Under the pieces are notes generated by a model. That model was given only the letters and a program-made list of their open reading frames with translations, was not told where the DNA came from and did not search any database. This document shows, one piece after another, positions 1,479 to 39,823 of a stretch of 64,000 bases of DNA. The stretch is from Sphingomonas sp. LaA6.9 (lineage in GTDB: Bacteria > Pseudomonadota > Alphaproteobacteria > Sphingomonadales > Sphingomonadaceae): the NCBI RefSeq assembly GCF_022601895.1, contig NZ_JAKVIO010000001.1, positions 124,001 to 188,000 on the forward strand, read 5' to 3'. The translations under genes and the position numbers were made by a program. Position 1 is the stretch's first letter. Every line of letters starts with the position of its first letter.

Positions 1479-2945
1479 ATGGCGGCGTCGTTCGTTGGTG
1501 CAGCGGGCAGCAATCATGGCGCGGGGTATGGGCGTCCAGTCCCTGCAGAACTGAGCGCAATCGGAGTACGAGCCTTTCGTCGAGCGCTTCTCGGCGCCGC
1601 CGCGACCACGACATTCCTGTATCTTGTCCTCGCCGACGCGCAGGCACAATGCGTCCCCGACAATCCGCCAGCCGGCGCGACCGTGACCTGCACCGGCTTC
1701 GATAATGACGGCTATTCCGCCAGCAATGCACCGATCACCGTCGAGATCCTCCAGGGCGCGACCATTGCGGGCACCGGCCTGAGCATCGCGGGGTCGGGCG
1801 ACGTCAATATCGACAATTCGGGCGCGATCCAGGGCAGTTCGGGCACCGCCGTCCGGATCGACGGCGTCGCCGGCTTCACCAAGGTTTTCGAGAACCACAC
1901 CGGCGGCAGTCTGAACGGCAATTTCCTGGGCAGCGGCGATGGCCGGATCGTCATACAGCAAAATGGCAATTTCAATGCAGGCGTCACCATCACCGGCAAC
2001 GGCGTCAACGATCTCTACCTGTTCGCCAGTCGCGGCATATCCGGACCCGTCAACATCACGGGCAGCGACAATGCGATCGACAATGCGGGCTTCTTCAACA
2101 ATGGCCTGACGTTAGTTGCTACCGCGAACAATCTGATCGTGAATCGTGCCGGAGCGCAGCTCAGCGGCACATTTCGTGTCACCGGCGATGGCCAGAATTC
2201 GATCTTCAACGATGGAACGATCAACAACGGCATCGCAATCGTGAGCAATGGCGAGGTGTTCGTCGCCAATACGGGAACGATCAGCGGCAATATCGAGGAC
2301 ACGGGAAGCGCCCAGGATTTCATCGACAACACCGGGACGATCAACAATTCCATACTGCTCCATGGCGGGGACGATTTCGTCGTCAACCGCTCGGGCGTCG
2401 TGAACCTGCTGGCGCCGTTGTCAGGCCCCGGCATCCAGGGCGCTATCGAAACCGGAGAGGGCATGGATGTCCTGCGGATGCTGGATGGAGTCATCAACGG
2501 TCAGGTGCTGATGGGCAGCGACGCCGATTTCGCCACGGTGTCGGGCGGCCTCATTTCACAGGCCGTCCAGATGCAATCGGGCGCCGACCTGTTCTTCTGG
2601 AACGGGGGACAGATTGGCGCGCTCGACATGGGGATCGACGACGATGTCGCACTCTTCTCGCAGCTCGCACCATCCAACATGGCCAATTTCATGCCGATCA
2701 ATGGCGGTCTCGGCGACGATCGGCTCTACTTTGGCGCGACACGCGGCGAGGATGTCTCGCGCTTCACCAACTGGGAGCTGTTCGAACTCGACAATGGCTC
2801 GACACTGACATTCTCCAATTTCTCGACGCTGACCCTGGGGGATTCGGGGACGGGCACCGGCGAACTCTATATCGACGAGACGAGCACGGTGTTCGCGGGC
2901 AATGGCACGCACACCGTTGCGCCCTTACCGCCGGCCAGCTGGTAA
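1479..2945 (+). CDS. Autotransporter, passenger-domain part (5' half of a frameshifted gene)
   Basis: This encodes 488 residues. A hydrophobic signal region around residues 30-56 ends in ADAQAQC. It is followed by a passenger built of irregular repeats with NTGTI/NDGTI, IDNSG and LxGDGxN-like turns, typical of a right-handed beta-helix. The frame ends at TAA 2943-2945 just after GTHTVAP. In the +2 frame the expected continuation ([16 protein letters not shown]..., then [12 protein letters not shown]) starts at once from 2927. One base therefore appears to be missing near 2926, and the gene is split from its beta-barrel half. The ATG at 1479 has a purine-rich GAGGGGA upstream. This is either a real pseudogene or a sequence error. 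Confidence 0.75.
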
Positions 2946-3058
2946 CCGTCTCCAATCTCGGCCTGATCGATCTCACCAACAGCCAGGCGACCGCCTTCGA
3001 CCGGTTCGTCGTACGCGGCAATTATTACGGCACCAACGGACGGCTGGCGCTGCAGACC

Positions 3059-4915
3059 GTGCTCGGCAGCGACAATTCGCCGTCAGACCAGTTGGTGATC
3101 AGCGGTGGCGGCGCGCAAGGCTATGGCAACACTGCCATCAGCATCATCAATCTCGGCGGCCTTGGCGCCTTGACCACGCTTGACGGCATCCGCGTTGTCG
3201 ATGCCGCCAATGGCGCGCTAACCACCGCCGACGCATTCTCGCTGGCCGGAACCGTCGCCGCGGGGATGTTCGAATATCTTCTGTACCGTGGCGGTGTCAG
3301 CGCAGGAACCGAACAAAGCTGGTTCCTGCGATCGCATGAAATCGTCCCGACCCCCACGCCGACGCCAACACCAACACCCACGCCGACGCCAACGCCAACG
3401 CCAACGCCGACACCCACGCCGACACCGACACCGACACCCACGCCGACACCGACGCCGACACCCACGCCGACACCGACGCCGACACCCACGCCGACACCCA
3501 CGCCGACGCCAACGCCGACGCCAACGCCGACACCCACGCCGACGCCAACACCCACGCCGACGCCAACGCCGACACCCACGCCGACGCCAACACCCACGCC
3601 GACACCCACGCCGACGCCAACACCCACGCCGACGCCAACGCCAACACCAACACCGACGCCGACGCCGACGCCCACCCCCACTCCGACACCACCGCCGGTG
3701 CCTACTCCCACGCCCACTCCGACACCTCCACCAGTGCCGACGCCCACGCCGACGCCACCCCCGGTGCCGACACCCACGCCCACGCCGACACCCACGCCCA
3801 CGCCGACACCCACGCCAACGCCGACACCACCCCCTACGCCGACACCTACACCTACACCGCCGACGCCCACGCCAACGCCGGCACCTACGCCTCCGACTCC
3901 CACGCCGACGCCGAGTTGCCTCGACCCCGACTGCGAAATACCGATCATCCGCCCGGAGGTGCCGAGCTATTCGCTCGTCCCCACCATTGCGCAGGAAATG
4001 GGGCTGTCGGCGCTCGGCACCTTTCATGAGCGTCAGGGTGATCAGTCGCTGCTCGCCGGTGACGGCGCCTTCGCAGCCGCATGGGCGCGGACGTTCGGCG
4101 ACAAGCGCGAGCAGCGTGGGGACCAGATCGTGGCCGGCACAGACTTCCAGCTGGCGCCCAGGTTCGACGGCGATATCTGGGGTATCCAGGCCGGCGTCGA
4201 TCTCTATGCGCGCGAATATGGCGACGGCCGACAGAACCGCTTCGGCCTGTTCTACACGCATAGCGAGGCATCGGGTGCGACGCGCGGCAACGTGCTCGCG
4301 AGGATCAACGACGCGGCGGGTCTGACCAGATTGAATGCGGACAGCGGGGGTGTCTACGCCACCTATATCGGGGCCGGGCGCTGGTATGCCGATCTTGTGG
4401 CGATGTACTCATGGCTGTCGGGCCGCGGCTCATCGTACCGCGGCATCAGCGCGGATTTCGAGGGTGAGTCCTTCCTCTTCTCGGCAGAGGGCGGCTATCC
4501 GATCGCGATCGCGGATAGCTGGACGGTCGAGCCTCAAGCGCAGTTCGTCATCCAGAATGTCTCGATCGACCCGAGCAGCGATCTTTTTAGCGAGATACGC
4601 TTCGACGATGTGACGACCTATACCGGTCGGATCGGCGCGCGGATCGAGGGGCAGGCCGAAATCGAGTCAACGATCTTTCAGCCCTTCGTAAACGTCGACA
4701 TCTGGCACACCTTTGCGGGCACGACCGAAATTTTCTTCAACGATGCAGCACTCAAAACCAATAGCGGCGCAACCACGCTGAAGGTCGGCGGAGGCTATAC
4801 CGCAATCCTCAGCCCGGGGATCAGTCTTCATGCCGGGGTCGACTGGGGCACCAATCTCAACGGCAGCAGCTATGACACGATCGGCGCCAATGTCGGCCTA
4901 CGCATCACGTGGTGA
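3059..4915 (+). CDS. Autotransporter, Pro-Thr linker and beta-barrel part (3' half of a frameshifted gene)
   Basis: The frame is open from about 2927 and the first usable start (GTG) is at 3059. It continues the passenger's C-terminal cap, with [13 protein letters not shown] and [19 protein letters not shown], the classic junction found in sphingomonad and pertactin-like autotransporters. A Pro-Thr tract of about 189 residues follows (3347-3913). Then comes an outer-membrane autotransporter beta-domain of about 315 residues, from [16 protein letters not shown], with alternating amphipathic strands and a terminal aromatic residue (VGLRITW). Translated alone it would lack a signal peptide, so it is probably only functional if fused to the upstream half by correcting one base near 2926. 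Confidence 0.75.
3347..3913 (+). repeat. Pro-Thr coding tandem repeat (6-bp unit), about 567 bp
   Basis: About 189 codons alternate almost perfectly between Pro (CCx) and Thr (ACx). The 6-bp unit varies between CCGACG, CCGACA, CCAACG, CCAACA and CCCACG, and longer 12-24 bp higher-order repeats are visible (for example ACGCCGACACCC recurring). The last third has PPP and PPV interruptions. In the protein this is an extended, probably rigid spacer between passenger and beta-barrel. Such tracts can change length by slippage and are also hard to assemble. Confidence 0.9.
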
Positions 4916-4999
4916 CCGTCGGATCACACGCCCCCTTCCGTTCACGCCGGCTGACGCTACGATAATGCCGGTGAACGCGCCTGGAGGATGCCGCGCACG

Positions 5000-6652
5000 A
5001 TGAAGCTGACATGCTATGTCTATTCGGGCTGGCAGCCGCGCATCCGCGCCGCGCCGCAAGGTCGCGAATGGATGGATGCCACGCCCGAGCGCTTCGCCTA
5101 TCGCTGCCTGCCACTCGATATCGCCAATGCGCATGGCTGGGAGCTGCTGAGCCCCGTCGGGTTCGAGGCCGAATGGAATGGCGGCAGTGCGCCCGGCGAT
5201 GTCGTCATCCGCCCCGATCCCGGATCGCCCGACCACCAGTTGCCCGTGGCGCTTTTCGGCCAGGGCGTGCTCACCTTTCATGTCGAAGGGCTGTTCCGTA
5301 CCGAGCCAGGCGTCAATCTGTGGGTCGGCGGATCGCCCAACAGCGCCAAGGACGGGATTGCCGCGCTCTCGGGCATCATCGAAACCGACTGGTCACCCTA
5401 TAGCTTCACGATGAACTGGCGCTTCACGCGGCCCAACCAAGTGATCCGCTTCGAGGAGAATGAGCCCTTCTGCTTCCTGTTTCCCGTCGCGCGTGGGAGC
5501 GTCGAGCAGGTCGAGCCGGAGATCCGGCCGATCGACGAAAACCCTGAGTTCCGGCTGCAATTCGAGGACTGGAGCAAGTCGCGCGACGCCTTCCACGCCG
5601 AAATGGCGAACAGCCCGGCTGCCGCGCCGTCGGCGAAATGGCAGAAGTTCTATTTTCGCGGCACCGATGCATCGGGCGTGCCCGGGCCAGCCGATCATCA
5701 GTCGAAGCTCAGGCTCGCCGAGTTCAAGGGCGCCGATGCCTATCACCGCGAGGCGCCGCCGCGAGCGCAGTGCCCCCATGCCCCCACGCACCCTGCAGCC
5801 AAGGCGCCGCCGGCGGCGCCTGCTGCAAAGCTCGACTGGATCATGCAGTCGCTGCAACGCCTCGATGCGCTGTCCGCCCGCCGCCAGATACCCCGCTATT
5901 CAGCCATCGACGAGGACAGTTTCCTCGACAACCACTATGCCGCCAACTGGCCCGCGCTGCTGTGCGGCGAGATGCGGGGCTGGCCCGCGCTCGAACGCTG
6001 GACGCCCGAATATCTGAAGCGGCTGGTGGGCTCCGCGATGGTCGAGGTCCAGGCCGATCGCGTGGCCGATGCCGATTTCGAGCGGCATATGGCCGCACAC
6101 AGCACGGTCATGGCCTTCGACGCCTTCATCGACCGGATCAGTGCCCCCGGCGCAGGCAACGCAACCTATCTGACCGCCTATAATTCGGCGGCAAACAGCC
6201 GCGCACTCGCGCCGCTGCATGCCGATCTGGGCTTTGTCGACAAGCTGCTTTCGCGCGAATGTGACCAGCCGCATGGTATGATGTGGATCGGGCCGCTCGG
6301 CACATTTACCCCGCTTCACCACGATCTGACCAACAATCTGCTGCTCCAGCTGGTCGGAAGCAAGCGCGTGCTGCTTGCCAGCCCGCTTGCGACGCCCCGC
6401 ATCTACAATGACCATCATGTCTATAGCGAGATCCGTGATCTTGCCGAACCCGAGCTTCTCGCGCGCTTTCCGCTCCTCGAAGGGGTGAAGGTGCATCAGG
6501 TCGACCTCATGCCCGGCGATGCGCTGTTCGTCCCGCTGGGCTGGTGGCACCAGGTGACCTCGCTCGACTTCAGCGTGACGATCACCCACACCAATTTCCG
6601 CTGGGCCAACGACTTTCACGGAAACTATCCGTCCGATCCCGCGCCCCGGTGA
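5000..6652 (+). CDS. DUF6065 - cupin-like (JmjC-type) dioxygenase fusion protein
   Basis: The product is about 550 residues. Residues 1 to about 230 (MKLTCYVYSGWQPRI..., ..GWELLSPVGFEAEWNGG) look like a DUF6065 protein. A Pro/Ala-rich linker follows. From about residue 280 there is a cupin_8/JmjC-like domain, with SFLDNHYAANWPALLCGEM, then HHD at residues 440-442 (HxD metal ligands) and the distal ligand in GWWHQV (H517). Enzymes of that fold are usually Fe(II)/2-oxoglutarate hydroxylases. An ATG at 4988 is also in frame, but GGAGG at 4983-4987 abuts it. The ATG at 5000 has a 12-nt spacing and matches where the DUF6065 domain starts. The gene stands alone, and its substrate is unknown. Confidence 0.82.
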   Translation: MKLTCYVYSGWQPRIRAAPQGREWMDATPERFAYRCLPLDIANAHGWELLSPVGFEAEWNGGSAPGDVVIRPDPGSPDHQLPVALFGQGVLTFHVEGLFRTEPGVNLWVGGSPNSAKDGIAALSGIIETDWSPYSFTMNWRFTRPNQVIRFEENEPFCFLFPVARGSVEQVEPEIRPIDENPEFRLQFEDWSKSRDAFHAEMANSPAAAPSAKWQKFYFRGTDASGVPGPADHQSKLRLAEFKGADAYHREAPPRAQCPHAPTHPAAKAPPAAPAAKLDWIMQSLQRLDALSARRQIPRYSAIDEDSFLDNHYAANWPALLCGEMRGWPALERWTPEYLKRLVGSAMVEVQADRVADADFERHMAAHSTVMAFDAFIDRISAPGAGNATYLTAYNSAANSRALAPLHADLGFVDKLLSRECDQPHGMMWIGPLGTFTPLHHDLTNNLLLQLVGSKRVLLASPLATPRIYNDHHVYSEIRDLAEPELLARFPLLEGVKVHQVDLMPGDALFVPLGWWHQVTSLDFSVTITHTNFRWANDFHGNYPSDPAPR

Positions 6653-6783
6653 CGAAATCGGCTCGAAAACGCAAAGGGCGAGCCAATCGGCAATTTAGCG
6701 CTATTCCGGGCCTCGATAGCGACCGGATTGCTGAAGACATTTCAAATATGCAAGTTTGCTCAAGGGGCTGTGTGAGTGACAAT

Positions 6784-7674
6784 TCACGCTGCGTCGAGCG
6801 CCTTCATGCGCGCCGCCTTGGTGTCCTTGACGGGCGGCAGTCCGAACATCCGACCATATTCACGCGTGAATTGCGACACGCTTTCATAGCCGACCTCGAA
6901 GGCTGCGCCGCTGGCGCTTTTCCCTTCCGACAACATCAGCCGTCGTGCCTCTATCAGCCGCAGATGCTTCTGAAACTGCAGAGGCGATAATGACGTGACC
7001 GCGCGGAAGTGCTGGTGGAAGGAGGACGGACTCATTCCCGCCACCGTCGCGAGCCGCTCGACCGGAAGCGGCTGCGCGAATTCGGTTCGCAACAGGGCAA
7101 CTGCCCGCGCCACTCGCCGCACATGGCCTTCCAGCCAGCCCAGATGACGTATCGCCGTGCCCAACCGTCCCGCCAGCAGCCAGTAATGCATCTCGCGCAC
7201 GAGTTGCGACTGCAGCACCGGGATCGACGCAGGGCGATCGAGCAGCCGCATCAGGCGCAGCGCGGCATCGGCGACCTCGACATCGGTTGGATCGACGCGG
7301 ACCGGCGCGTGGTCAGCCACCAGCCCGGCCTCCATTTCCGCCGCAAGCTCCGCGAGCACGGCGAGGTCGAGTTCGAGTACCAGCGAATAATATGGGGCTG
7401 CCACGCTCGCGCGCGTTATCTGGCTCACGATAGGCACATCGGCCGCGATCAGCAGCGTATCGCCAGCGGAAAAGGCGAAATCCTGCGTTCCCATTGTCAC
7501 ATGCTTGCCGCCTTGCGCCACGATACAGACCATGGGACGGGAAACGTCGTGGAGAAGCCCGCTGGGCGCCGTCGCGCGCACGGCCGAAAGGCCCGGAATC
7601 GGCGTCCGCGCAATGCCGTTCGCATCGGCATGGGCGTCGGCGTAGCGGCTGACGGCGGTGAGCAGGCTGGTCAT
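6784..7674 (-). CDS. AraC-family transcriptional regulator
   Basis: The product is 296 residues starting MTSLLTAVSRYADAHAD. The N-terminal half matches the AraC_N type effector domain (TPIPGLSAVRA..., RPMVCIVAQGGKHVTMG, AGDTLLIAADVPIVSQITRAS). The C-terminal 100 residues hold two helix-turn-helix motifs, including LATVAGMSPSSFHQHFRAVT and AAFEVGYESVSQFTREYGRMFG with the usual PxxF..R-type ending. The frame stays open upstream to 7818, but the ATG at 7674 fits the family N-terminus. It is divergent from the short-chain dehydrogenase at 7812 and separated from it by 137 bp, a standard arrangement for a regulator and its target. The regulated link is inferred. Confidence 0.9.
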   Translation of the reverse strand: MTSLLTAVSRYADAHADANGIARTPIPGLSAVRATAPSGLLHDVSRPMVCIVAQGGKHVTMGTQDFAFSAGDTLLIAADVPIVSQITRASVAAPYYSLVLELDLAVLAELAAEMEAGLVADHAPVRVDPTDVEVADAALRLMRLLDRPASIPVLQSQLVREMHYWLLAGRLGTAIRHLGWLEGHVRRVARAVALLRTEFAQPLPVERLATVAGMSPSSFHQHFRAVTSLSPLQFQKHLRLIEARRLMLSEGKSASGAAFEVGYESVSQFTREYGRMFGLPPVKDTKAARMKALDAA

Positions 7675-7811
7675 TGCATGGATGCTACTCCCATTATCGC
7701 GTCGCGCCGAGTCATTCGGAGGATCGGGCAAAAAACCGAGAGGACCCGGCAACAACCGACGAGCCCCGCGCGGCATATATCGGCAGCCACACAAGCAGCA
7801 GGAGTCCCCCC

Positions 7812-8567
7812 ATGACAAAGATTGCTCTCGTTACAGGTGCCAGCCGCGGCCTCGGCCGTAACACCGCGCTCAGCATCGCGCGCCGCGGCGGCGACGTCGT
7901 CATCACCTATCACAGCCGTTCCGACGAGGCCGATGCGGTCGTCGCGGAGATTCAGGCAATGGGCCGCAGGGCCGTCGCGCTCCAGCTCGACACCGGCGAT
8001 GTCGCAGGTTTCGGCGCCTTCGCCGATCGGTTGCGCGGGGCGCTGGCCGAGACCTGGCAACGCGACAGCTTCGACCACCTCGTCAACAATGCCGGACATG
8101 GCGACTATGCGCTGATCGCCGAGACAAGCGAGGCGCAGTTCGACCGGCTGGTCGATGTCCACTTCAAGGGCGTGTTCTTTCTGACCCAGGCGTTGTTGCC
8201 GCTGATCGCGGATGGCGGCCGGATCGTTAACCTGTCCACCGGACTTACCCGGATCACCTATCCCGGCTACGCCGCCTATGCGGCGGTGAAGGGCGCGGTC
8301 GAGGTACTGACCCGCTACATGGCGAAGGAACTCGGCGCGCGCGGCATCGCGGTGAATGCGGTGGCGCCGGGCGCGATCGAGACGGATTTCGGCGGGGGCG
8401 TTGTGCGTGACAATCCCGAGCTCAACGAGCAGTTTGCCGAGCTCACCGCGCTCGGTCGGGTCGGCCTTCCCGACGATATCGGACCCATGATCGCCAGCCT
8501 CGTCACCGAAGACAATCGCTGGGTCAATGCGCAGCGTATCGAAGTGTCCGGCGGTCAAGGCATCTAG
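7812..8567 (+). CDS. Short-chain dehydrogenase/reductase (SDR family)
   Basis: This 251-residue classical SDR oxidoreductase has an N-terminal NAD(P)-binding TGASRGLG motif (residues 8-15), a structural NNAG motif near residue 95, and the catalytic set S142, Y156 and K160 (YAAVK). PGAIETDF follows at the usual distance. The start ATG at 7812 is preceded by AGGAG at 7799-7803. The long upstream open frame is not used, because it would overlap the divergent AraC gene. The substrate cannot be predicted. The divergent AraC regulator probably controls it, as is common for SDRs induced by electrophiles or alcohols. Confidence 0.92.
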   Translation: MTKIALVTGASRGLGRNTALSIARRGGDVVITYHSRSDEADAVVAEIQAMGRRAVALQLDTGDVAGFGAFADRLRGALAETWQRDSFDHLVNNAGHGDYALIAETSEAQFDRLVDVHFKGVFFLTQALLPLIADGGRIVNLSTGLTRITYPGYAAYAAVKGAVEVLTRYMAKELGARGIAVNAVAPGAIETDFGGGVVRDNPELNEQFAELTALGRVGLPDDIGPMIASLVTEDNRWVNAQRIEVSGGQGI

Positions 8568-8588
8568 ACCGGGCCGTTGACGAGAACA

Positions 8589-8619
8589 GGGGCTGGCGGA
8601 CATCGGTTCCGCCAGCCCC
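8589..8619. terminator. GC-rich hairpin between convergent genes
   Basis: The arms GGGGCTGGCGGA and TCCGCCAGCCCC form a perfect 12-bp stem with a 7-nt loop, placed 22 nt after the SDR stop and 62 nt after the end of the ROK gene. It probably ends transcription from both sides. There is no clear U-tract on either strand, so termination is inferred from position and stability. Confidence 0.55.
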
Positions 8620-8680
8620 CACAGCCGACAGCCTTTCATGCCTGTCCCCGCGAATCCGAATCCGCGGTCTCGCGAGATCG

Positions 8681-9793
8681 TCAGCCTTCGGCTGAGACCG
8701 CATGGATAGGCAGCAGGGCAGCGCCGAGCGTTACCGGGGAGCCACCCAGGCTCGACACCTGCACAGGGGGACGGCGATCGCAGATCGTCGTGACCAGATC
8801 GGCACGGAGAATCCGGTCTGACAGGCGCTGCAGGATCTCGACAGGCAGCGTGCCCGCAATCACGATCGCGCCCGGATCCAGCCAGGCGAAGGCAGTATTG
8901 CAGACAACTTCCAGTTGCTGCGCGGCACGCTCGATCCATAGTTCGATTGACGCGCGCTGATTGTCGGCGGCAGTATCGATCTCCGCGACTGAGGAGATAC
9001 TGCAGCCGTTCGCGCGAAGCGTGGACAGGAGATCGAGCGGACTGGGCCGCGGACGGTCCCCGGGAAACAGGCAGCCGATTTCTCCGGCTACGCCAAACTG
9101 CCCGCGCACGACACGGCCGTCGACGATGACGCCGGCGCCGATACCATAGCCCAGCAGCAGGACGACCACGGTCGAGAATTTCTGCACGAGGCCGCCGAGA
9201 TAGAATTCGGCGATAGCCGCGGAATTGGCATCATTCTCGATCCAAAGCGGCCATCCCAGCTCGGCCGTCATGATCTCTCGCAGCGGCGTTCCACGCCAGT
9301 TGGGCATGCCCTCGACCACGCTCCACCGATCACCCTCGGGCGAAAGGGAGGGGCCGGGCACCGCCACGCCGATGCCGAGCATGCGTTGCCCCAGCAGGTG
9401 GTGGAGATCCACCAGGCTATGCGTGATCTGGCGCACCATTTGCGCGAACTCGTCGGGTTTGATCGGCTCGATCGTCTCGCGATGCGTCGCGATCACCGAT
9501 CCCGCAAAATCGACCAGCGCGATGTCCAGCATGCCCTTGTGAACCGTGGCGCCCACTGCGTACCCGCCCCTGGAGGCGATCCGCAACGGAATTGCCGGAC
9601 GGCCCCGGCCATGTACCTCGCTCTCCGGAACTTCCTCGACAATGCCCAGCGCCAGCAGGTCGCGCGACAATTTGGTAAGCGCAGCGCCGCTGACCTCGAG
9701 TCGCGCCGCAAGCGAGGAACGAGAGCACGGACCCGCCTTGCGCAGCTCCTGAATGAGGCGCCGCTGGTCCTTGTCGAGCATCGGAACGTGCAC
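8681..9793 (-). CDS. ROK-family (NagC/XylR-type) transcriptional regulator
   Basis: The product is about 370 residues. It has an N-terminal winged helix-turn-helix (RRLIQELRKAGPCSRSSLAARLEVSGAAL) followed by a ROK sugar-kinase fold with ENDANSAAIAE and LLLGYGIGAGVIV. The family's GEIGH-type motif reads GEIGC here, and the CxCGxxGC zinc motif is absent, so it is probably a sensor rather than a kinase. A GTG at 9793 with GGAGA about 7 nt upstream is the preferred start. An in-frame GTG further upstream (to 9832) and an ATG at 9781 are alternatives. It is divergent from the TonB-dependent receptor, with a strong palindrome between them, and likely represses that operon in response to a sugar. 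Confidence 0.88.
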   Translation of the reverse strand: MHVPMLDKDQRRLIQELRKAGPCSRSSLAARLEVSGAALTKLSRDLLALGIVEEVPESEVHGRGRPAIPLRIASRGGYAVGATVHKGMLDIALVDFAGSVIATHRETIEPIKPDEFAQMVRQITHSLVDLHHLLGQRMLGIGVAVPGPSLSPEGDRWSVVEGMPNWRGTPLREIMTAELGWPLWIENDANSAAIAEFYLGGLVQKFSTVVVLLLGYGIGAGVIVDGRVVRGQFGVAGEIGCLFPGDRPRPSPLDLLSTLRANGCSISSVAEIDTAADNQRASIELWIERAAQQLEVVCNTAFAWLDPGAIVIAGTLPVEILQRLSDRILRADLVTTICDRRPPVQVSSLGGSPVTLGAALLPIHAVSAEG

Positions 9794-9846
9794 AGCGAGT
9801 TCTCCGATTCCGTGTCGGCGATCCGACAGCACACCGGGACATAGCG

Positions 9847-9880
9847 AAATTTAATTATTTTAGGAAAAATAATTAAATTT
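9847..9880. promoter_or_regulatory. Perfect AT-rich inverted repeat, probable ROK regulator operator
   Basis: AAATTTAATTATTTT and its exact complement AAAATAATTAAATTT are separated by 4 nt (AGGA). This perfect 15-bp dyad is nearly free of G and C within a genome of roughly 65% GC. It lies between the ROK regulator start (9793) and the TonB receptor start (9948). The core TTATTTT-N4-AAAATAA resembles operators of NagC/Mlc/XylR-type proteins. Binding by the adjacent regulator is inferred. Confidence 0.75.
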
Positions 9881-9947
9881 GTCACATTGCGAGGCCAGGG
9901 GCGGCGCGTCGCCTTCCTGGCGGCCCTGTAATTTTGTGAGGGGCCTC

Positions 9948-12452
9948 ATGCTCAAAACCGTTCTCGCCACCGGCACCGCGTGTGCCGCCATCTGCTCCGT
10001 GTTCGTCGTCGCGCCCGCCCATGCGCAGGCGGCGGACGCTACGACTCCCGCTGAGGCCACGGAAGCCGCCGAGGCGGATGCGCCCGCCGGCGAAATCATC
10101 GTCACGGGCTCGACGCGCGCCGAGCGCCGCTTTGACGTGTCCTACGCGATCAACACGATCACCCCGACCGATGTAGAGAAGATCGCGCCCGTCAACTTCG
10201 CGGACCTGATCGGCCAGCTTCCCGGCTTCCAGACCGAGATCACGGGCGGCGAGGTGCAGAACATCTACCGCATCCGTGGCCTGCCCAATGACGGCGGCTT
10301 CGTCAGCTTCCAGCAGAACGGCCTGCCGCTGTTCCATGAGAATGACGGCGTTTTCTTCCGCGGCGACGCCATCCTCAAGCAGGACCTGATGACCGAGCGC
10401 GTCGAGGTCGTGCGTGGTGGCCCTGCGCCGGTCTATGCCAGCTATTCGGGCGCGATCATCAACGCGATCACCGTGACGGGCGACGAAACGCCGCGCGGCA
10501 AGGCGCAGCTGACGCTCGGCGATACGGGCCTGTACCGTCTAGACGCCATGCAGGCGGGCCCGCTCGGCAAGGACACCTATTATGCCGTGGGCGGCTTCCT
10601 GCGTTATCATGACGGCTATCGCGACAATGGCTTTCCCAACGACAAGGGCGGCCAGATCCGCGCCAACATCAAGCACGACTTCGACAATGGCTCGATCCGG
10701 CTGAATCTCAACTACGTCAACGATCACAACGTCTTCTATCTGCCGATCCCGATCTCCGACCCGACCGACCCCAGCGTCTCGCTCGATCCCTATATCGATT
10801 ATTTCACGGGCACGATGAACTCGCCCGCGCTGCGCAACGTCAACCTCAAGTGGCGCGACGGGGCCGGCCAGATCCAGAGCCGCACCAGCGACCTGTCCGA
10901 CGGCCGCCACATGCAGATGGTCAATTTCGGCGCGCAATATGACGGCGACTTCGACGGCTGGCTGGTGACTGCAAGGGCGGGCTACACGCAGGGCAAGCTC
11001 GATTTCACGGCGTTCTATTCGACGACCAATCCCGCCGATGCCACGACCTTCGCCAATGGCTATCTTGCGCGTTCGACCGCGGCCTTCGGCAATGTGGCGT
11101 CCTTCGGCTATGTGCTGTCGGGGACCAACACCGCCTATGACCCCTATGCCGCCTCGGGCCTCGTCATGCAGGGCCAGTACCGCGACATCCATTCGAAATT
11201 CTATTCGGCGCAGGGCGATCTGTCGGTCGCCAGGCGCTTCGACACCGCCATCGGCAGCCATGATATCAAGCTGGGCCTCTATGCCAGCGCCTATGGCGAG
11301 GACAGCAACACCATCTACCAGAACTATCTGATCGAGGTGGCGGGCAAACCGCGGACGCTCGACCTGGTCGCCTATGGGGCCGGCGGCATTGAGCTGGGTC
11401 GCGTGACCGACAATGGCGTGCTCAACTATGCGGCGACGCTCAACAAGGGCGATTCGGACGCGACGATGTTCGCGCTCTACGCCAACGACACCTGGGAAGT
11501 GGTGCCGGGCCTGCGCATCGACGCGGGCGTCCGCCACGAACGCTACAGCTACAAGGGCTGGGCGGCGCTGACCGAGCAGGTGAATCTCGGCGACGGCACC
11601 ACGCTTGCCGACGACACCACGCGCGGCTTCACCGGTGTCATCGTCAACCGCGAGCTTTCGCCCAGCATCACCAACTGGACGGTGGGCGCCAACTACGATT
11701 TCAGCAGCAGTATCGGAATCTACGGCCGCGCCTCGCACCTCGAGACGCCGCCCAACGTCCAGACCTCGATGACCGTCAACCCGACGATCCTGACGACCAA
11801 GGCCGACCAGTTCGAGGCAGGCCTGAAGTTCGCATCGGGTCGTTCCTACCTCTACGTCACAGGCTTCTATACCAATTTCGACCCGCTCAACGCGTCGTTC
11901 CTGGCGTATAACCCGCTCACCGGGCGCAACGACGTGCCCGTCCCCTTTATCGGGGAAGCGCAGGTCAAGGGCATCGAGTTCGACGGCGCGTGGCAGGTGA
12001 CGCCCTGGTTCAGCCTGAACGGTGCGCTGACCGTCAGCGATCCCAAGTACAAGAACTTCAAGAGCTCGACGGGCGCCGACCCCGAACAGGTTGAGGGCAA
12101 CCAGATCGTGCGCCAGCCCAAGGTGTATGGAAACATCCGCCCGAGCTTCGACTTCACGACCGCGGGGACCGATGTCTCGATCTATGGGCGCTACACCTAT
12201 ATGGGCAAGCGCTACGTCGATCTCTACAACAACACCGCGCTACCCTCCTATGGCACGGTCGGTGCGGGCATCTCGCTGCGTCGTGACAGTTGGGCGTTGC
12301 AGGTCGTCGGCGACAACCTGTTCAACGCGCACGGCCTGACCGAAGGCAATACGCGTACCGACATACTCGACGGTCAGGGCAGCAGCACCGCAATCTATGG
12401 CCGCCCGATCTTCGGCCGGAACTTCCGCCTCGTCATCAGCAAGTCCTGGTGA
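9948..12452 (+). CDS. TonB-dependent outer-membrane receptor
   Basis: The product is 834 residues. A signal peptide (MLKTVLATGTACAAICSVFVVAPAHAQ) precedes a TonB box region and plug domain (GEIIVTGSTR, ..VNFADLIGQLPGFQTE.., YRIRGLPNDGG, ERVEVVRGGPAPVYASYSGAIIN). A 22-stranded type barrel follows, ending in RNFRLVISKSW with a terminal aromatic residue. The ATG at 9948 follows GAGGGG. It takes up a bulky substrate across the outer membrane using TonB energy. The divergent ROK regulator and the nearby GPH-type transporter suggest a sugar or glycoside, but the ligand is not visible in the sequence. Its stop overlaps the next start (ATGA), so it is translationally coupled to the YdcF-like gene. 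Confidence 0.92.
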   Translation: MLKTVLATGTACAAICSVFVVAPAHAQAADATTPAEATEAAEADAPAGEIIVTGSTRAERRFDVSYAINTITPTDVEKIAPVNFADLIGQLPGFQTEITGGEVQNIYRIRGLPNDGGFVSFQQNGLPLFHENDGVFFRGDAILKQDLMTERVEVVRGGPAPVYASYSGAIINAITVTGDETPRGKAQLTLGDTGLYRLDAMQAGPLGKDTYYAVGGFLRYHDGYRDNGFPNDKGGQIRANIKHDFDNGSIRLNLNYVNDHNVFYLPIPISDPTDPSVSLDPYIDYFTGTMNSPALRNVNLKWRDGAGQIQSRTSDLSDGRHMQMVNFGAQYDGDFDGWLVTARAGYTQGKLDFTAFYSTTNPADATTFANGYLARSTAAFGNVASFGYVLSGTNTAYDPYAASGLVMQGQYRDIHSKFYSAQGDLSVARRFDTAIGSHDIKLGLYASAYGEDSNTIYQNYLIEVAGKPRTLDLVAYGAGGIELGRVTDNGVLNYAATLNKGDSDATMFALYANDTWEVVPGLRIDAGVRHERYSYKGWAALTEQVNLGDGTTLADDTTRGFTGVIVNRELSPSITNWTVGANYDFSSSIGIYGRASHLETPPNVQTSMTVNPTILTTKADQFEAGLKFASGRSYLYVTGFYTNFDPLNASFLAYNPLTGRNDVPVPFIGEAQVKGIEFDGAWQVTPWFSLNGALTVSDPKYKNFKSSTGADPEQVEGNQIVRQPKVYGNIRPSFDFTTAGTDVSIYGRYTYMGKRYVDLYNNTALPSYGTVGAGISLRRDSWALQVVGDNLFNAHGLTEGNTRTDILDGQGSSTAIYGRPIFGRNFRLVISKSW

Positions 12453-13630
12453 TGATGATCCGGATGGAGCGGATTGCCACGCCGCTTGCCGTGGCAATCG
12501 CCCTGTCGCTTTCCACCGCCCCGGCTTTTGCCGGGGCGGCTCGGGACACGGCGGCAGAGGCGCTTTCGCAGCGGCTGTTCCCGCTGCTGGACAGGCTGAG
12601 CGGCGACACTTCCGAGCTCAATACCCTGAAAACGCAGCCCGATGCGGCACGCGTGCTCGGTGATAGACAGGCACGCCGGGCCGCTTGCGGGCAGGACCTT
12701 GGCTGCACCGCCATGGCGATGATGTGGTCCGACGCCGAAGCCGCCACGCTCGCCGCCGCAATCGAGCCGCTCGCGCGTGGCGCGGCGCCCGATGATGGTG
12801 CGGTTGCGGGGTTCACGCGGGAAGTGCAGGGTATCAATGCGATCGTCAGCAGCTATGCGCTGGGCGCGGTGCCCCGTTACGCGCAGATCGATGGCGCGGG
12901 CATGCTCGATCCGCAGGAAGCAAAGGCGCGCCTTCAGGGTGCGCTCGCGCTCGCGCAGACGCCGCGCGCCGGTTCTGCGCAGGCGCTCGATCCCAGCATC
13001 GAGTTCGCGCTGGCGCTGCTCGACACGCACGACCGGACCGACGCGACGGGCTTCGAACCGCTGACGGGCGGACGGAACGCGCCCGCATTTGAAAGGGCCA
13101 GGCGAATCGACTGGAAACGCTGGCGCTACACCGCGATGATCGTCACGGGCGTCGGCCCCGAAACCCCCGACATGCCGCTCAGCCCGATGGGCAAATATCA
13201 TCTCCGGCTTGCCGCCAATCGCTTTGCGGCGGGCGACATTCCCTTCATCATCGTCACCGGCGGCCGCGCGCATCCGCGTGCTACGCGCTTTGCAGAGGCA
13301 GAGGAAATGCGCCGCGCGCTGATCGAGCGCTACGGGGTGCCCGCCCACGCCATCGTGATCGAACCCTATGCCCGGCACACCACGACCAACCTGCGCAACG
13401 CCTCGCGCCTGCTCATGATGATGGGTGCTCCGCTCGACCGCGACGCGCTGATCGTCTGCAACCCGACGCAGAGCGCCTATATCGAGAGCACCGTCTTCAC
13501 GCAGCGCAACGAGGCCGAGCTTGGCTACCAGCCCGGGCAGGCAGGTGCGCGTCTTTCGCCAACCGAGCTGGTGTTTCGGCCTTCTGCCCGGTCGGCGCGT
13601 GTCGACCCCCGCGATCCACTCGACCCCTGA
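12452..13630 (+). CDS. YdcF-like (DUF218) exported protein
   Basis: The product is about 392 residues with an N-terminal signal peptide (LAVAIALSLSTAPAFAGA). The C-terminal half is a DUF218/YdcF domain: AMIVTGVGPETP, PFIIVTGGRAHP, RFAEAEEMRRALIERYGVP, IVIEPYARHTTTNLRNASRL. These contain the conserved acidic and Gly residues and the ARHTTxN element. The N-terminal half has no family I recognise. Starts at 12452, 12455 and 12464 are all possible; the first overlaps the receptor stop by 4 nt. It is the second gene of the receptor operon. DUF218 proteins act on cell-envelope or nucleotide-like ligands, but the biochemical role here is unknown. Confidence 0.85.
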   Translation: MMIRMERIATPLAVAIALSLSTAPAFAGAARDTAAEALSQRLFPLLDRLSGDTSELNTLKTQPDAARVLGDRQARRAACGQDLGCTAMAMMWSDAEAATLAAAIEPLARGAAPDDGAVAGFTREVQGINAIVSSYALGAVPRYAQIDGAGMLDPQEAKARLQGALALAQTPRAGSAQALDPSIEFALALLDTHDRTDATGFEPLTGGRNAPAFERARRIDWKRWRYTAMIVTGVGPETPDMPLSPMGKYHLRLAANRFAAGDIPFIIVTGGRAHPRATRFAEAEEMRRALIERYGVPAHAIVIEPYARHTTTNLRNASRLLMMMGAPLDRDALIVCNPTQSAYIESTVFTQRNEAELGYQPGQAGARLSPTELVFRPSARSARVDPRDPLDP

Positions 13631-13643
13631 TCTGGAGTTTCCG

Positions 13644-14630
13644 ATGCGTCCTTTCCTGCTTGCCGCGCTCGCCACAATTTCCGCGCTCGCTCCTGCCACC
13701 GCGCACGCCTGGGGCGGGACTGCCCATGCGGTGATAGACCGCGCCGCGATCGAGGCGATTCCCGATGACGGCCCGGTCTTCCTGCGCAAATATGCCGACT
13801 ATGTCGCGGCCTCGGCCTCCTTGCCCGACAGCTGGCGCGGAGCGTCGGAGAATTTCTCCAAGATTGATGAGGATCCCAACCATGGCTGGTTCAGGGAGCA
13901 GTTCACGTTCGTGACGCCGATCCCGCGCTCGCGCTATGAATTCGTGCTCGCACTCTACAAGCATTACGAGAAGATCAGGGACAGCGACCCCGAGACCGCT
14001 CAGCGCACCAATGTCCGCTGGACCGGCACGCTCCCCTATGCCGCGATCGAGGCCTATGACCGGCTGGTCGTGTGCATGCGCTATGTGCGCAAGGCACAGG
14101 CCGAGGGTCGCGACGCCTCGGTCCCCGAACAGCATTGCGCGTTCCAGACGATCCGGCTCGGCCACTATATCGGCGACGGCTCGCAGCCACTTCACGATTC
14201 GATCCACAGTGACGGATGGCGCGGCGACAATCCGAAGGGCTACACGCGCGACCGGAGCATCCATGGCCGCTTCGAGAGCGGTTTCGTCGACGCGATCGGC
14301 CTGACGGTGAAGGACATCGCACCGCGCATCGGCGCGCCGGCGCACCTGAGCGGCGACATGTTCGATGCGGTTCTCGGCTTTCTCGACGATGCGGGGGACA
14401 GGATGGAGACCGTCTATGAGCTCGAGAAGCGCGACGGCTTCGCGAACCATGCCGACAAGGATGTACGCGAGATGGTCTATGCGCAGACCGCGAAGGGCGC
14501 GGCGATGCTGCGCGACATGATCTGCCGCGCCTGGGCGGAAAGCGCGAGCCCGCCCGCCACGGTCGATCCGTCTCCGCTCGATCCCGCCAACCCGGCCTAT
14601 AATCCGGAGACCGGTTCAGCCCCCGACTGA
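13644..14630 (+). CDS. S1/P1-nuclease / zinc phospholipase C-like secreted protein
   Basis: The product is 328 residues. Signal cleavage after TAHA would leave an N-terminal Trp (WGGTAHAVIDRAA), which is the first zinc ligand in S1/P1 nucleases and bacterial zinc phospholipases C. Other family elements are visible: ASLPDSWRG (Asp ligand), a His in DPNHGWF, and GHYIGDGSQPLHDSIHSDGW (H..D..H ligands). It is therefore probably a periplasmic or secreted tri-zinc phosphodiesterase acting on nucleic acid or phospholipid. The start ATG is preceded by CTGGAG. It is the third gene of the receptor operon, 13 nt after the YdcF-like gene, and its 3' end overlaps the convergent MFS gene by 34 nt. Confidence 0.83.
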   Translation: MRPFLLAALATISALAPATAHAWGGTAHAVIDRAAIEAIPDDGPVFLRKYADYVAASASLPDSWRGASENFSKIDEDPNHGWFREQFTFVTPIPRSRYEFVLALYKHYEKIRDSDPETAQRTNVRWTGTLPYAAIEAYDRLVVCMRYVRKAQAEGRDASVPEQHCAFQTIRLGHYIGDGSQPLHDSIHSDGWRGDNPKGYTRDRSIHGRFESGFVDAIGLTVKDIAPRIGAPAHLSGDMFDAVLGFLDDAGDRMETVYELEKRDGFANHADKDVREMVYAQTAKGAAMLRDMICRAWAESASPPATVDPSPLDPANPAYNPETGSAPD

Positions 14631-16024
14631 GTCGGTCCTTTGGGTGGGCAGGCGCGGCTCCTGCGGGCAAGCGCGGCAAGCACCCCCGCGTGACGGGCGT
14701 GCCCGATGTCGAAGAAGCGCAGGAGCACAATTGCGGAAAGACAGCCGGCGATCGGCAGGCCAAGGCCGAGACCCAGCATCCCGGCGCGAACCGGCATCGC
14801 CTGGATCTCGCCGGGGACATAGCCGAGCCATCCCAGAGACCAGCCGATCAGTGCGGTCGAGGCAGCGCCGCTCGCCTTGACGACGACGAGGTAGAAGGCG
14901 AACAGCCCGGTTTCGAACCGCCGGTGATGCCGCCACGCGACGAAATCCACGGCGTCCGCCAGAAGGCCCCAGGGCAGCATGTACACGCTGGCAAGGCCCA
15001 TTCCGATCAGGACCGCACAGCCGGGCAGGATATCGGGCCTGCGCAGGCACAGCGCGAAGAGGATCAGGCCCGCCGCCCCGACGCCGTGGCCGAGGGCGAG
15101 GAGCCGGCTCTTGTTGAAGCGCCCGGTCAGCGAGGTCCACCCAAGGACGCCGATGAACTGGCCAAGCGTCAGCGCGAGAAGAAGCGAACCGACCAGATCG
15201 GGACGGTCAACCACATAAGTGCCGATATAAAGGAGCATCCGGCCGAAGGTTGGGACGGCGAGCCCGGTGATCACCGCGATCGCGGCCATCCCCAGCACCA
15301 GGCGATTGCCCAGCGGTACGGCGACACCGTCGCCCGTCGAGCCCTGCGCCGGCCGCAAATATGCACCGCCGCCAGACGTCAGCGCGCACACGCTCATGGT
15401 GAACGCGAACACGGCGCCCGCAATGATCCCCGTCATTGTCAGCGTGTCGAACGCCCGGTCCAGCGCGGCCTGCTGCACCAGTGGCGTGAGCGCCAGGGCG
15501 ACGACGAGCGCGCTCCCGGTGCTGAAGAGCAACCGGTAACCGGAAACCCGGCCGCGCGTGCGGCTGTCGCTGGTGATCTGGGCCATCAATGCGTTGTGCG
15601 GCACATCGATGACGGCATAGGCTCCGCGAAACACCAGCAGCGCGCAGGCCAGCATCCAGCCCTGATGCGCTCCGAGCGCGGGCATGGCGTAGAGGAGCGC
15701 GAAGGCCGCGCCGCACGGAATGGCGCCGGCGACGACCATCCAGCGATACCCTCTTCCCGAACGACGAAGGCGAATGACGAGCACCGCCGCCAGAAGGTCG
15801 AAGACCAGATCTCCGGCAAGTGCCATCAGCATCAGCGTGCCCGCAGCCGTAGCGGACAGCTTCAACAGATCGGTCAGCAGGAACATGATCGTGAGATCGG
15901 CGCCCGCGAAGACGAGCCCCTTGCCGAAATTTCCCGATGAATAAGCGAAAAGGCGACTCTCTCTCGCCACCGCGGCAATGCGGCCACCCCGGAAAAGGGA
16001 CCCGCGATCTTCACTCGGCTGCAT
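14597..16024 (-). CDS. MFS transporter, GPH (MelB-like) sugar:cation symporter family
   Basis: The product is 475 residues with about 12 hydrophobic segments. The family signature includes GNFGKGLVFAGADLTIMFLLTDLL at the N-terminus, VIDVPHNALMAQITSDSRTRGRVSGYR after helix 4, and GLLADAVDFVAWRHHRRFETGLFAF in the second half, all typical of GPH carriers. It probably imports a glycoside or organic solute with a cation. The ATG at 16024 is chosen because the family N-terminus begins shortly after it. The gene converges on the TonB-receptor operon and may supply the inner-membrane step for the same substrate, an inference from position only. Confidence 0.87.
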   Translation of the reverse strand: MQPSEDRGSLFRGGRIAAVARESRLFAYSSGNFGKGLVFAGADLTIMFLLTDLLKLSATAAGTLMLMALAGDLVFDLLAAVLVIRLRRSGRGYRWMVVAGAIPCGAAFALLYAMPALGAHQGWMLACALLVFRGAYAVIDVPHNALMAQITSDSRTRGRVSGYRLLFSTGSALVVALALTPLVQQAALDRAFDTLTMTGIIAGAVFAFTMSVCALTSGGGAYLRPAQGSTGDGVAVPLGNRLVLGMAAIAVITGLAVPTFGRMLLYIGTYVVDRPDLVGSLLLALTLGQFIGVLGWTSLTGRFNKSRLLALGHGVGAAGLILFALCLRRPDILPGCAVLIGMGLASVYMLPWGLLADAVDFVAWRHHRRFETGLFAFYLVVVKASGAASTALIGWSLGWLGYVPGEIQAMPVRAGMLGLGLGLPIAGCLSAIVLLRFFDIGHARHAGVLAALARRSRACPPKGPTQSGAEPVSGL

Positions 16025-16173
16025 CTGCCAGCGCCTAGCCGGCCATTCTTGCACTTTTGCGACGAGGACGTGCCAAATGGGTGCTCGCCCTGATGCGAAA
16101 GCAGTGTCCGACGGAGGCGGCAATCAAGGATTTGGCGCGCTGGGAAATGGCTAAAATCGGCGCAGAGTCAGCC

Positions 16174-23999: not shown

Positions 24000-24108
24000 G
24001 CTCATCCTGAGGAGCCGTTGAGCCTGCCGAAACGGCATCTCGAAGGACACGCAGGCAGTCCTTCGAGACGGGACTTCGCCAGGCTCAGTCCCTCCTCAGG
24101 ATGAACGG
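24000..24108. repeat. Dispersed palindromic repeat, family B (copy 1)
   Basis: The 109-bp palindrome begins GCTCATCCTGAGGAG and ends CTCCTCAGGATGAAC. Nested arms inside are TCTCGAAGGAC/GTCCTTCGAGA and GAGCCTGCCGAA/TTCGCCAGGCTC. It lies just after valS. A nearly identical copy is at 27489. It could end valS transcription. Confidence 0.88.
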
Positions 24109-27488: not shown

Positions 27489-27601
27489 CGCTCATCCTGA
27501 GGAGCCGTTGAGCCTGACGAAACGGCGTCTCGAAGGATTTTCGAAATCGGTCCTTCGAGACGGGTCTTCGCCTTCGCTCAACCCCTCCTCAGGATGAGCG
27601 G
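27489..27601. repeat. Dispersed palindromic repeat, family B (copy 2)
   Basis: The 113-bp palindrome starts CGCTCATCCTGAGGAGCCG and ends CTCCTCAGGATGAGCGG. It is nearly the same as the copy at 24000, and the internal TCTCGAAGGA arm is also conserved. It lies between ychF (3' end) and the phosphodiesterase gene start, 25 nt upstream of that ATG. Confidence 0.88.
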
Positions 27602-39790: not shown

Positions 39791-39823
39791 AGGGCGGCGG
39801 GATCTGATCCCGCCGCCCTTTTT
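39791..39823 (+). terminator. Rho-independent terminator after ppdK
   Basis: AGGGCGGCGGGA pairs perfectly with TCCCGCCGCCCT around a 5-nt loop (TCTGA) and is followed by TTTT on the plus strand. It lies 22 nt after the ppdK stop and 3 nt before the end of the convergent tadC, so it probably stops ppdK transcription and may also act on the pilus operon. Confidence 0.9.

Follow-up and report, generated by a model that had tools for sequence, protein, structure and literature searches.

Several ROK-family regulators bind DNA sites with a T-rich 5′ half and an A-rich 3′ half, as far as the text available from one study describes them (PMC4856308). The operators of Escherichia coli NagC are AT-rich inverted repeats, T-rich on the left and A-rich on the right (PMC3098098), an example being the distal glmU site GTTTATTCATTGATCGAAATAAG (PMC3098098, Table 1). 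RokB of Streptomyces coelicolor is also associated with an inverted repeat, TTTGTTC-N11-GAACAAA at novH, and in the portion of the report available its other sites lack a perfect inverted repeat (PMC4856308). IolR, likewise an ROK protein, controls a catabolic operon of Thermotoga, that for inositol, through a single DNA site; in the available text it gave no response to the sugars, inositol or inositol phosphate tested (PMC3750489). The best PDB sequence match of the regulator discussed here is 7RHE, annotated 'ROK family protein' (residues 21–377, E = 1.5e-25).

The locus described here lies in a 64-kb window, by which we mean the whole stretch of DNA analysed, and it shares with the NagC operators an AT-rich inverted repeat that is T-rich on the left and A-rich on the right. 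It differs in that NagC sites are 23 bp long with an odd centre (PMC3098098), whereas the present site has an even centre and an 8-bp gap. The genes controlled by NagC are also different, and the ROK protein of the window scores 94.2 bits against a NagC model cut-off of 650. Compared with RokB, the half-site sequence, the host and the regulon are all different (PMC4856308), while IolR comes from a different phylum and an outer-membrane receptor is not mentioned in the part of its report available (PMC3750489). The zinc motif is not seen in the alignment of 7RHE, as in the ROK protein of the window. A search of the literature, largely outside subscription journals, found no description of an ROK regulon for these genes. 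The features of the locus are as follows.

8681–9793, minus strand: ROK-family regulator with a helix–turn–helix and an RGRP wing, without the zinc motif; ORF open to 9832 (PF00480, E = 1.3e-23)
9847–9880, no strand: perfect inverted repeat with AT-only 15-bp arms and a 4-base spacer (sequence)
9853–9874, no strand: predicted operator core AATTATT-N8-AATAATT, consensus AWTTATT-N8-AATAAWT (conservation across loci)
9857–9862, minus strand: candidate ROK −10 element, TAAAAT, inside the dyad (promoter scan; dependent on the dyad sequence)
9880–9885, minus strand: candidate ROK −35 element, GTGACA (promoter scan; TGAC offset in relatives)
9948–12452, plus strand: TonB-dependent outer-membrane receptor, start ATG 9948 (PF00593, PF07715)
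12452–13630, plus strand: DUF218/YdcF protein, start overlapping the receptor stop (ATGA) (PF02698)
13644–14630, plus strand: exported protein, probable zinc-phospholipase-C/P1-nuclease fold (invariant residues, Foldseek)
14597–16123, minus strand: MFS_2/GPH-type symporter, convergent with the operon, a conserved neighbour (PF13347)

The inverted repeat at 9847–9880 consists of two 15-bp arms (9847–9861 and 9866–9880) that contain only A and T, are 100% complementary and are separated by four bases, exactly as an earlier note on this DNA had described it. That note also placed the dyad at the centre between the divergent start codons; it does lie between them, away from the exact midpoint. With spacers of up to 20 bases allowed, it exceeds every other perfect inverted repeat of the 64-kb window in length. 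The longest arms in 30 first-order Markov control windows measured 10–13 bp, and 15 bp was reached in none of the 30. Only two A+T runs of at least 11 bases occur in the window, and these contain the two arms. Allowing up to three mismatches, the full dyad matches once in the window (0 expected) and once in the 4.39-Mb genome (G000), and the 20-position core TTTAATTATT-N8-AATAATTAAA is likewise single-copy in that genome, so that no second operator was found elsewhere in it at up to three mismatches of this core. Three other inverted repeats of the window were recorded in passing: those at 24038–24068 and 27526–27562 have common arms, TCTCGAAGGA and TCCTTCGAGA, and perhaps belong to an REP-like family of the genome, and a 14-bp perfect GC-rich repeat with a 1-base loop at 39791–39819 is perhaps a terminator.

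A search with the ROK protein, based on short peptide patterns and not exhaustive, recovered 28 loci besides the window, 39–76% identical, in Novosphingobium, Sphingobium, Sphingomonas, a Luteibacter MAG and an alphaproteobacterial MAG. The dyad adjoins the ROK gene in all 28. The pattern AWTTATT-N8-AATAAWT is exact in 28 of 29 loci (the window and L007–L034), with one mismatch in L021; as this consensus was derived from the same 29 loci, only four further loci are independent of it. The latter came from a scan of 298 genomes of the family, in which an ROK match at E = 1e-40 or better was present in 12 genomes (14 matches in total); the seven matches at least 48% identical comprise the window, repeats of L012 and L018, and the four independent loci. 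These four (L037, L039, L040 and L041) carry the core in front of the receptor with 0, 1, 2 and 2 mismatches, respectively. Altogether, every locus with an ROK relative of at least 39% identity has the core within 250 bp of the ROK gene and upstream of a TonB receptor (33/33), 29 of the cores being exact and the remainder differing at one or two positions. The earlier note had suggested searching relatives for the same dyad beside ROK genes and had named a lack of conservation upstream of orthologous receptors as one outcome that would refute the reading; the core was recovered in all 33 loci with 0–2 mismatches, and the prediction survived.

Within the 419,896 bases of the 29 loci there is no match with two or fewer mismatches more than 250 bases from ROK, and a single 3-mismatch match lies far from it. 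Four extra 2-mismatch matches beside ROK represent the known site read in overlapping registers. The reversed pattern gives seven matches at three mismatches and none at two or fewer. In a row alignment (22 ungapped rows, including two duplicates) the fraction of the major base is 0.95 and 1.00 in the arms and 0.86 in the centre. In the near flanks it is 0.84–0.69 on the receptor side and 0.56–0.61 on the ROK side, and it falls to 0.45–0.50 in the far flanks, where the use of ungapped rows understates conservation. The conserved unit is the 22-bp AWTTATT-N8-AATAAWT rather than the 15-bp arms, which in their perfect form were seen in the window alone among the sequences compared. The dyad described in the earlier note thus stands, with its extent corrected to a conserved core of 22 bp (9853–9874). 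By the same comparative evidence, the dyad is a putative regulatory element that relatives from three or more genera have retained.

The ROK gene and the receptor are divergent, with the dyad between them, in 22 of the 29 loci. The 21 divergent relatives contain the receptor (21/21), YdcF (20/21), the gene for the phospholipase-C (PLC)-like exported protein (20/21) and the symporter (19/21); L021 is cut by a contig end and L015 has no symporter in the stretch examined. The remaining seven loci (L026–L030, L032 and L033) have ROK and the receptor in tandem, with the dyad directly downstream of ROK. A same-strand TonB receptor comes next in all seven, and the dyad is located in the gap that separates ROK from the receptor start. 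The dyad precedes the receptor in either gene order, and this suggests that it acts mainly on the receptor.

What the dyad has in common with NagC sites is the layout; the window site resembles them only to the degree expected from its composition. Scanned with a NagC matrix, the dyad is the top match in the window (19.6), yet 164 of 500 column-permuted symmetric matrices did equally well, which makes such likeness weak proof of an ROK operator. Among 14 sites treated in this way, permutations were as good in 8–28 of 500 trials for L007, L009, L010, L012, L021 and L023, in 56 of 500 for L024, and in 119–243 of 500 for the window, L017, L020, L026, L030, L032 and L033. Of the resemblance to NagC, Mlc and XylR half-sites drawn in the earlier note, the T-rich and A-rich layout is borne out and a NagC-specific sequence at the window site is not.

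The regulator matches PF00480 with 84.4 bits against a cut-off of 22.9, covering profile positions 12–157 of 294; its C-terminal half diverges from this profile but aligns with 7RHE up to residue 377. Its PDB relatives include Mlc, XylR and Lmo0178. The N-terminus aligns to the ROK regulators of the PDB, and the RG[RQ]P wing is present in 41 of 42 aligned ROK rows, which include two duplicates and seven distant paralogs. Two observations make GTG 9793 a more probable start of the gene than the first in-frame GTG (9832): it is preceded by a GGAGA ribosome-binding site, and the majority of relatives start close to the corresponding residue. The zinc motif CxCGxxGCxE and ExGH is common, although not universal, in ROK proteins, and it occurs in none of the 42 rows. 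The corresponding region reads GEIG-x-[LF][FY]P...RP[ST]..DL in the clade (approximately residues 250–272 of the ROK ORF); a loose form of this GEIG signature is found in all 42 rows, with changes in the seven distant sphingomonad paralogs. ROK regulators without zinc may thus be common in sphingomonads, as far as these alignments indicate.

A candidate promoter toward ROK, GTGACA-17-TAAAAT, agrees with the consensus at 10 of 12 positions with a 17-bp spacer (0.1 expected in shuffles), and its −10 hexamer lies inside the dyad. Of 26 divergent loci, 23 have TGAC at this offset; L013 and L022 lack it, and in L041 it is displaced by one base. One of the four tandem loci aligned lacks it as well. 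An xAAAAT hexamer follows 17 bp on in 22 of the 26 divergent loci; as it is part of the dyad, this count is not independent of the dyad. The GTCA beside the dyad may alternatively be an element of the receptor promoter; the scan and the offsets fit the candidate ROK −35 element better, but the same GTCA letters are present upstream of a receptor in genome G001, which has no ROK ortholog. Separately, the receptor leader of the window contains a short GC-rich, terminator-like hairpin at 9908–9924 (one found, 0.4 in shuffles). The receptor leader of L010 has a GC-rich hairpin as well (GGGAGCCCC and GGGGCTCCC), and a leader control element is possible.

Taken together, we consider the dyad to be the predicted operator of the adjacent ROK protein, which would block both the receptor–YdcF–PLC-like operon and the ROK gene until relieved by a ligand; we give this reading a probability of roughly 0.83. 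An ROK dimer would sit on the AT-rich half-sites AWTTATT and AATAAWT, which are separated by 8 bp. Once bound, it would block the receptor operon and cover the candidate ROK −10 element, occluding its own gene. ROK would then be freed from the site by a ligand stemming from what the receptor imports, probably a sugar or a polyol. The operator function of the dyad is strongly supported by comparison of the loci, and repression of the receptor operon by ROK is likely. Autorepression is also likely, because the candidate ROK promoter overlaps the dyad, whereas release by ligand would follow by analogy with the ROK family. The three regulatory proposals of the earlier note fare well. Assignment of the dyad to the adjacent ROK protein is supported by the 33 loci and by its absence at distant paralogs and at two ROK-less receptors; control of the receptor operon agrees with a site in front of the receptor in divergent and tandem loci alike; and control of the regulator itself, offered there as a possibility, now appears likely from the overlap with the candidate ROK promoter.

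The most serious competitor is that the operator serves the receptor operon only and the ROK gene is not autoregulated. The seven of 29 loci with tandem genes, where the dyad is downstream of ROK and before the receptor, would suit this arrangement, but in all 26 divergent loci the ROK promoter candidate and the site overlap, and 23 of these loci keep TGAC at a constant distance; we regard this reading as a minority possibility, albeit one to be taken seriously. That ROK instead activates the receptor operon from the dyad is unlikely. The receptor promoter is unplaced, and a site directly upstream of it would suit an activator; one published title credits NagC with activating as well as repressing glmUS, and another describes the ROK-type CysR as a dual regulator. 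Repression is nevertheless the commoner mode in ROK proteins. The conserved block extends past the dyad toward the receptor, suggesting overlap with the receptor promoter, and CsnR, another ROK-type regulator, is called a repressor in the available part of one study (PMC4856308). A somewhat less probable reading still makes the dyad the site of another regulator, an UP element or a nucleoid-protein site, with ROK merely incidental. AT-rich promoter DNA is commonplace in GC-rich genomes such as this one, and ROK binding is a prediction from sequence comparison. However, both the symmetry and the 8-bp spacing are kept across ROK relatives of 39–76% identity, and the dyad was not found at the receptors examined that lack an ROK ortholog.

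Two readings in which the repeat would not be a protein-binding site fit the comparison poorly. As RNA, the arms of the window fold well on both strands (z = −3.95 and −5.36), as would be expected of a hairpin, terminator or leader structure, yet for the two relatives tested, L010 and L026, folding is indistinguishable from that of shuffled sequences (z = 0.07 and 0.18). Many relatives, moreover, have unequal arms (AATTATT with AATAAAT) that break the pairing, both divergent genes start downstream of the dyad, and there is no G–C pair in the arms. We rejected an RNA hairpin or terminator on the folding of the two relatives and the unequal arms, and consider it very improbable. The chance of a fortuitous repeat in an AT-rich spacer or a mobile-element remnant is slighter still, the dyad being single-copy in its genome and conserved in 33 of 33 loci. 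Positions 9800–9960 gave no match to 72,556 plasmid records at blastn sensitivity, and on this and the single copy we rejected a mobile element or multi-copy repeat.

Loci without the ortholog follow the operator reading. Seven distant ROK paralogs (29–33% identical; stretches of approximately 4 kb) have no core at two or fewer mismatches (0/7); the stretches L045 and L047 each contain one 3-mismatch match, that of L045 approximately 90 bp upstream of ROK. In G001, a genome of the same genus, a receptor (59% identical) and YdcF (35% identical) are followed by a GH92 gene (L062, 270–5989). The ROK matches of this genome do not reach E = 1e-40; the best two are weak, one with 26% identity across 223 residues (E = 7.1e-15) and one with 34% across 91 residues, and the dyad is absent upstream of its receptor at up to three mismatches. 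The lone match at this threshold in the 11.5 kb taken has two mismatches and lies 3.2 kb from the receptor. G033, in which the E = 1e-40 threshold again yielded no ROK match, lacks the dyad upstream of its 44%-identical receptor. The 14-position pattern at one mismatch occurs in 86 of the 298 family genomes, including one place in G001, and is unspecific without context. Six extra 1-mismatch sites from genomes with and without the ortholog (L050–L052 and L056–L058) include none before a receptor start (0/6); five are inside open frames and L050, from G001, is outside the listed frames.

The receptor, YdcF and PLC-like genes very likely form one operon, judging from the overlap of the first two and the 13-bp gap between the latter two. 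None of the five proteins of the locus reached the cut-off of an NCBIfam model. The symporter scores 162.6 bits with TIGR00792, under the cut-off of 231.35, and there is no dyad at its promoter, the nearest upstream match of the scan having five mismatches. The PLC-like protein has no Pfam match, and a sequence search of the PDB gave a best E of 0.5. Its predicted model (mean pLDDT 75.5) has only zinc-phospholipase-C/P1-type nuclease structures at Foldseek ranks 1–12, with probabilities of 0.97–1.00, E values of 0.012–0.30 (none at 0.001 or below) and TM scores to the query of 0.30–0.43. A set of residues (Trp24, His29, Asp63, His81, His175, Asp179, His185, His208 and Glu212) is invariant in 21 aligned sequences, and these are presumably metal ligands. 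The model suggests that the product is probably a zinc-PLC/P1-fold protein, either a nuclease or a phospholipase. The name 'nuclease' used for it in the earlier note is accordingly too narrow as to specificity.

Four of the seven tandem loci, L026, L030, L032 and L033, were examined downstream of the receptor and in each a glycerophosphodiester phosphodiesterase gene (PF03009) follows it (receptor–phosphodiesterase spans 7221–10969, 7221–10948, 7192–10964 and 2338–7259, respectively); in L033 a PI-PLC (PF16670) follows as well. Because of these phosphodiesterases and the zinc-PLC/P1-like gene of the window, the gene content hints at phosphodiester compounds as the substrates of the regulated receptors, whereas the GH92 gene of G001 points instead to a glycan. 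We tentatively propose, as a possibility more doubtful than probable, that the sphingomonad ROK clade without the zinc motif, also found in the Luteibacter and the other alphaproteobacterial MAG, controls the uptake across the outer membrane of phosphodiester-linked compounds, such as phosphoglycans or the head groups glycerophospho- and phosphoinositol, and senses the released polyol or sugar in a ligand pocket that dispenses with the canonical zinc-held histidine. The receptors concerned would be those whose partner enzymes are a glycerophosphodiester phosphodiesterase, a PI-PLC or a protein of the zinc-PLC/P1 fold.

The pairing of the dyad with an ROK protein is ordinary in kind and well founded, and its interest may lie in the clade and in a possible phosphodiester-scavenging regulon. 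The genomes supply a predicted operator, AWTTATT-N8-AATAAWT, for an ROK clade for which no description was found and which is tied to one receptor operon. With this operator, the substrate of the TonB receptor would become directly testable through de-repression, and the phosphodiesterases of the tandem loci suggest the first candidates.
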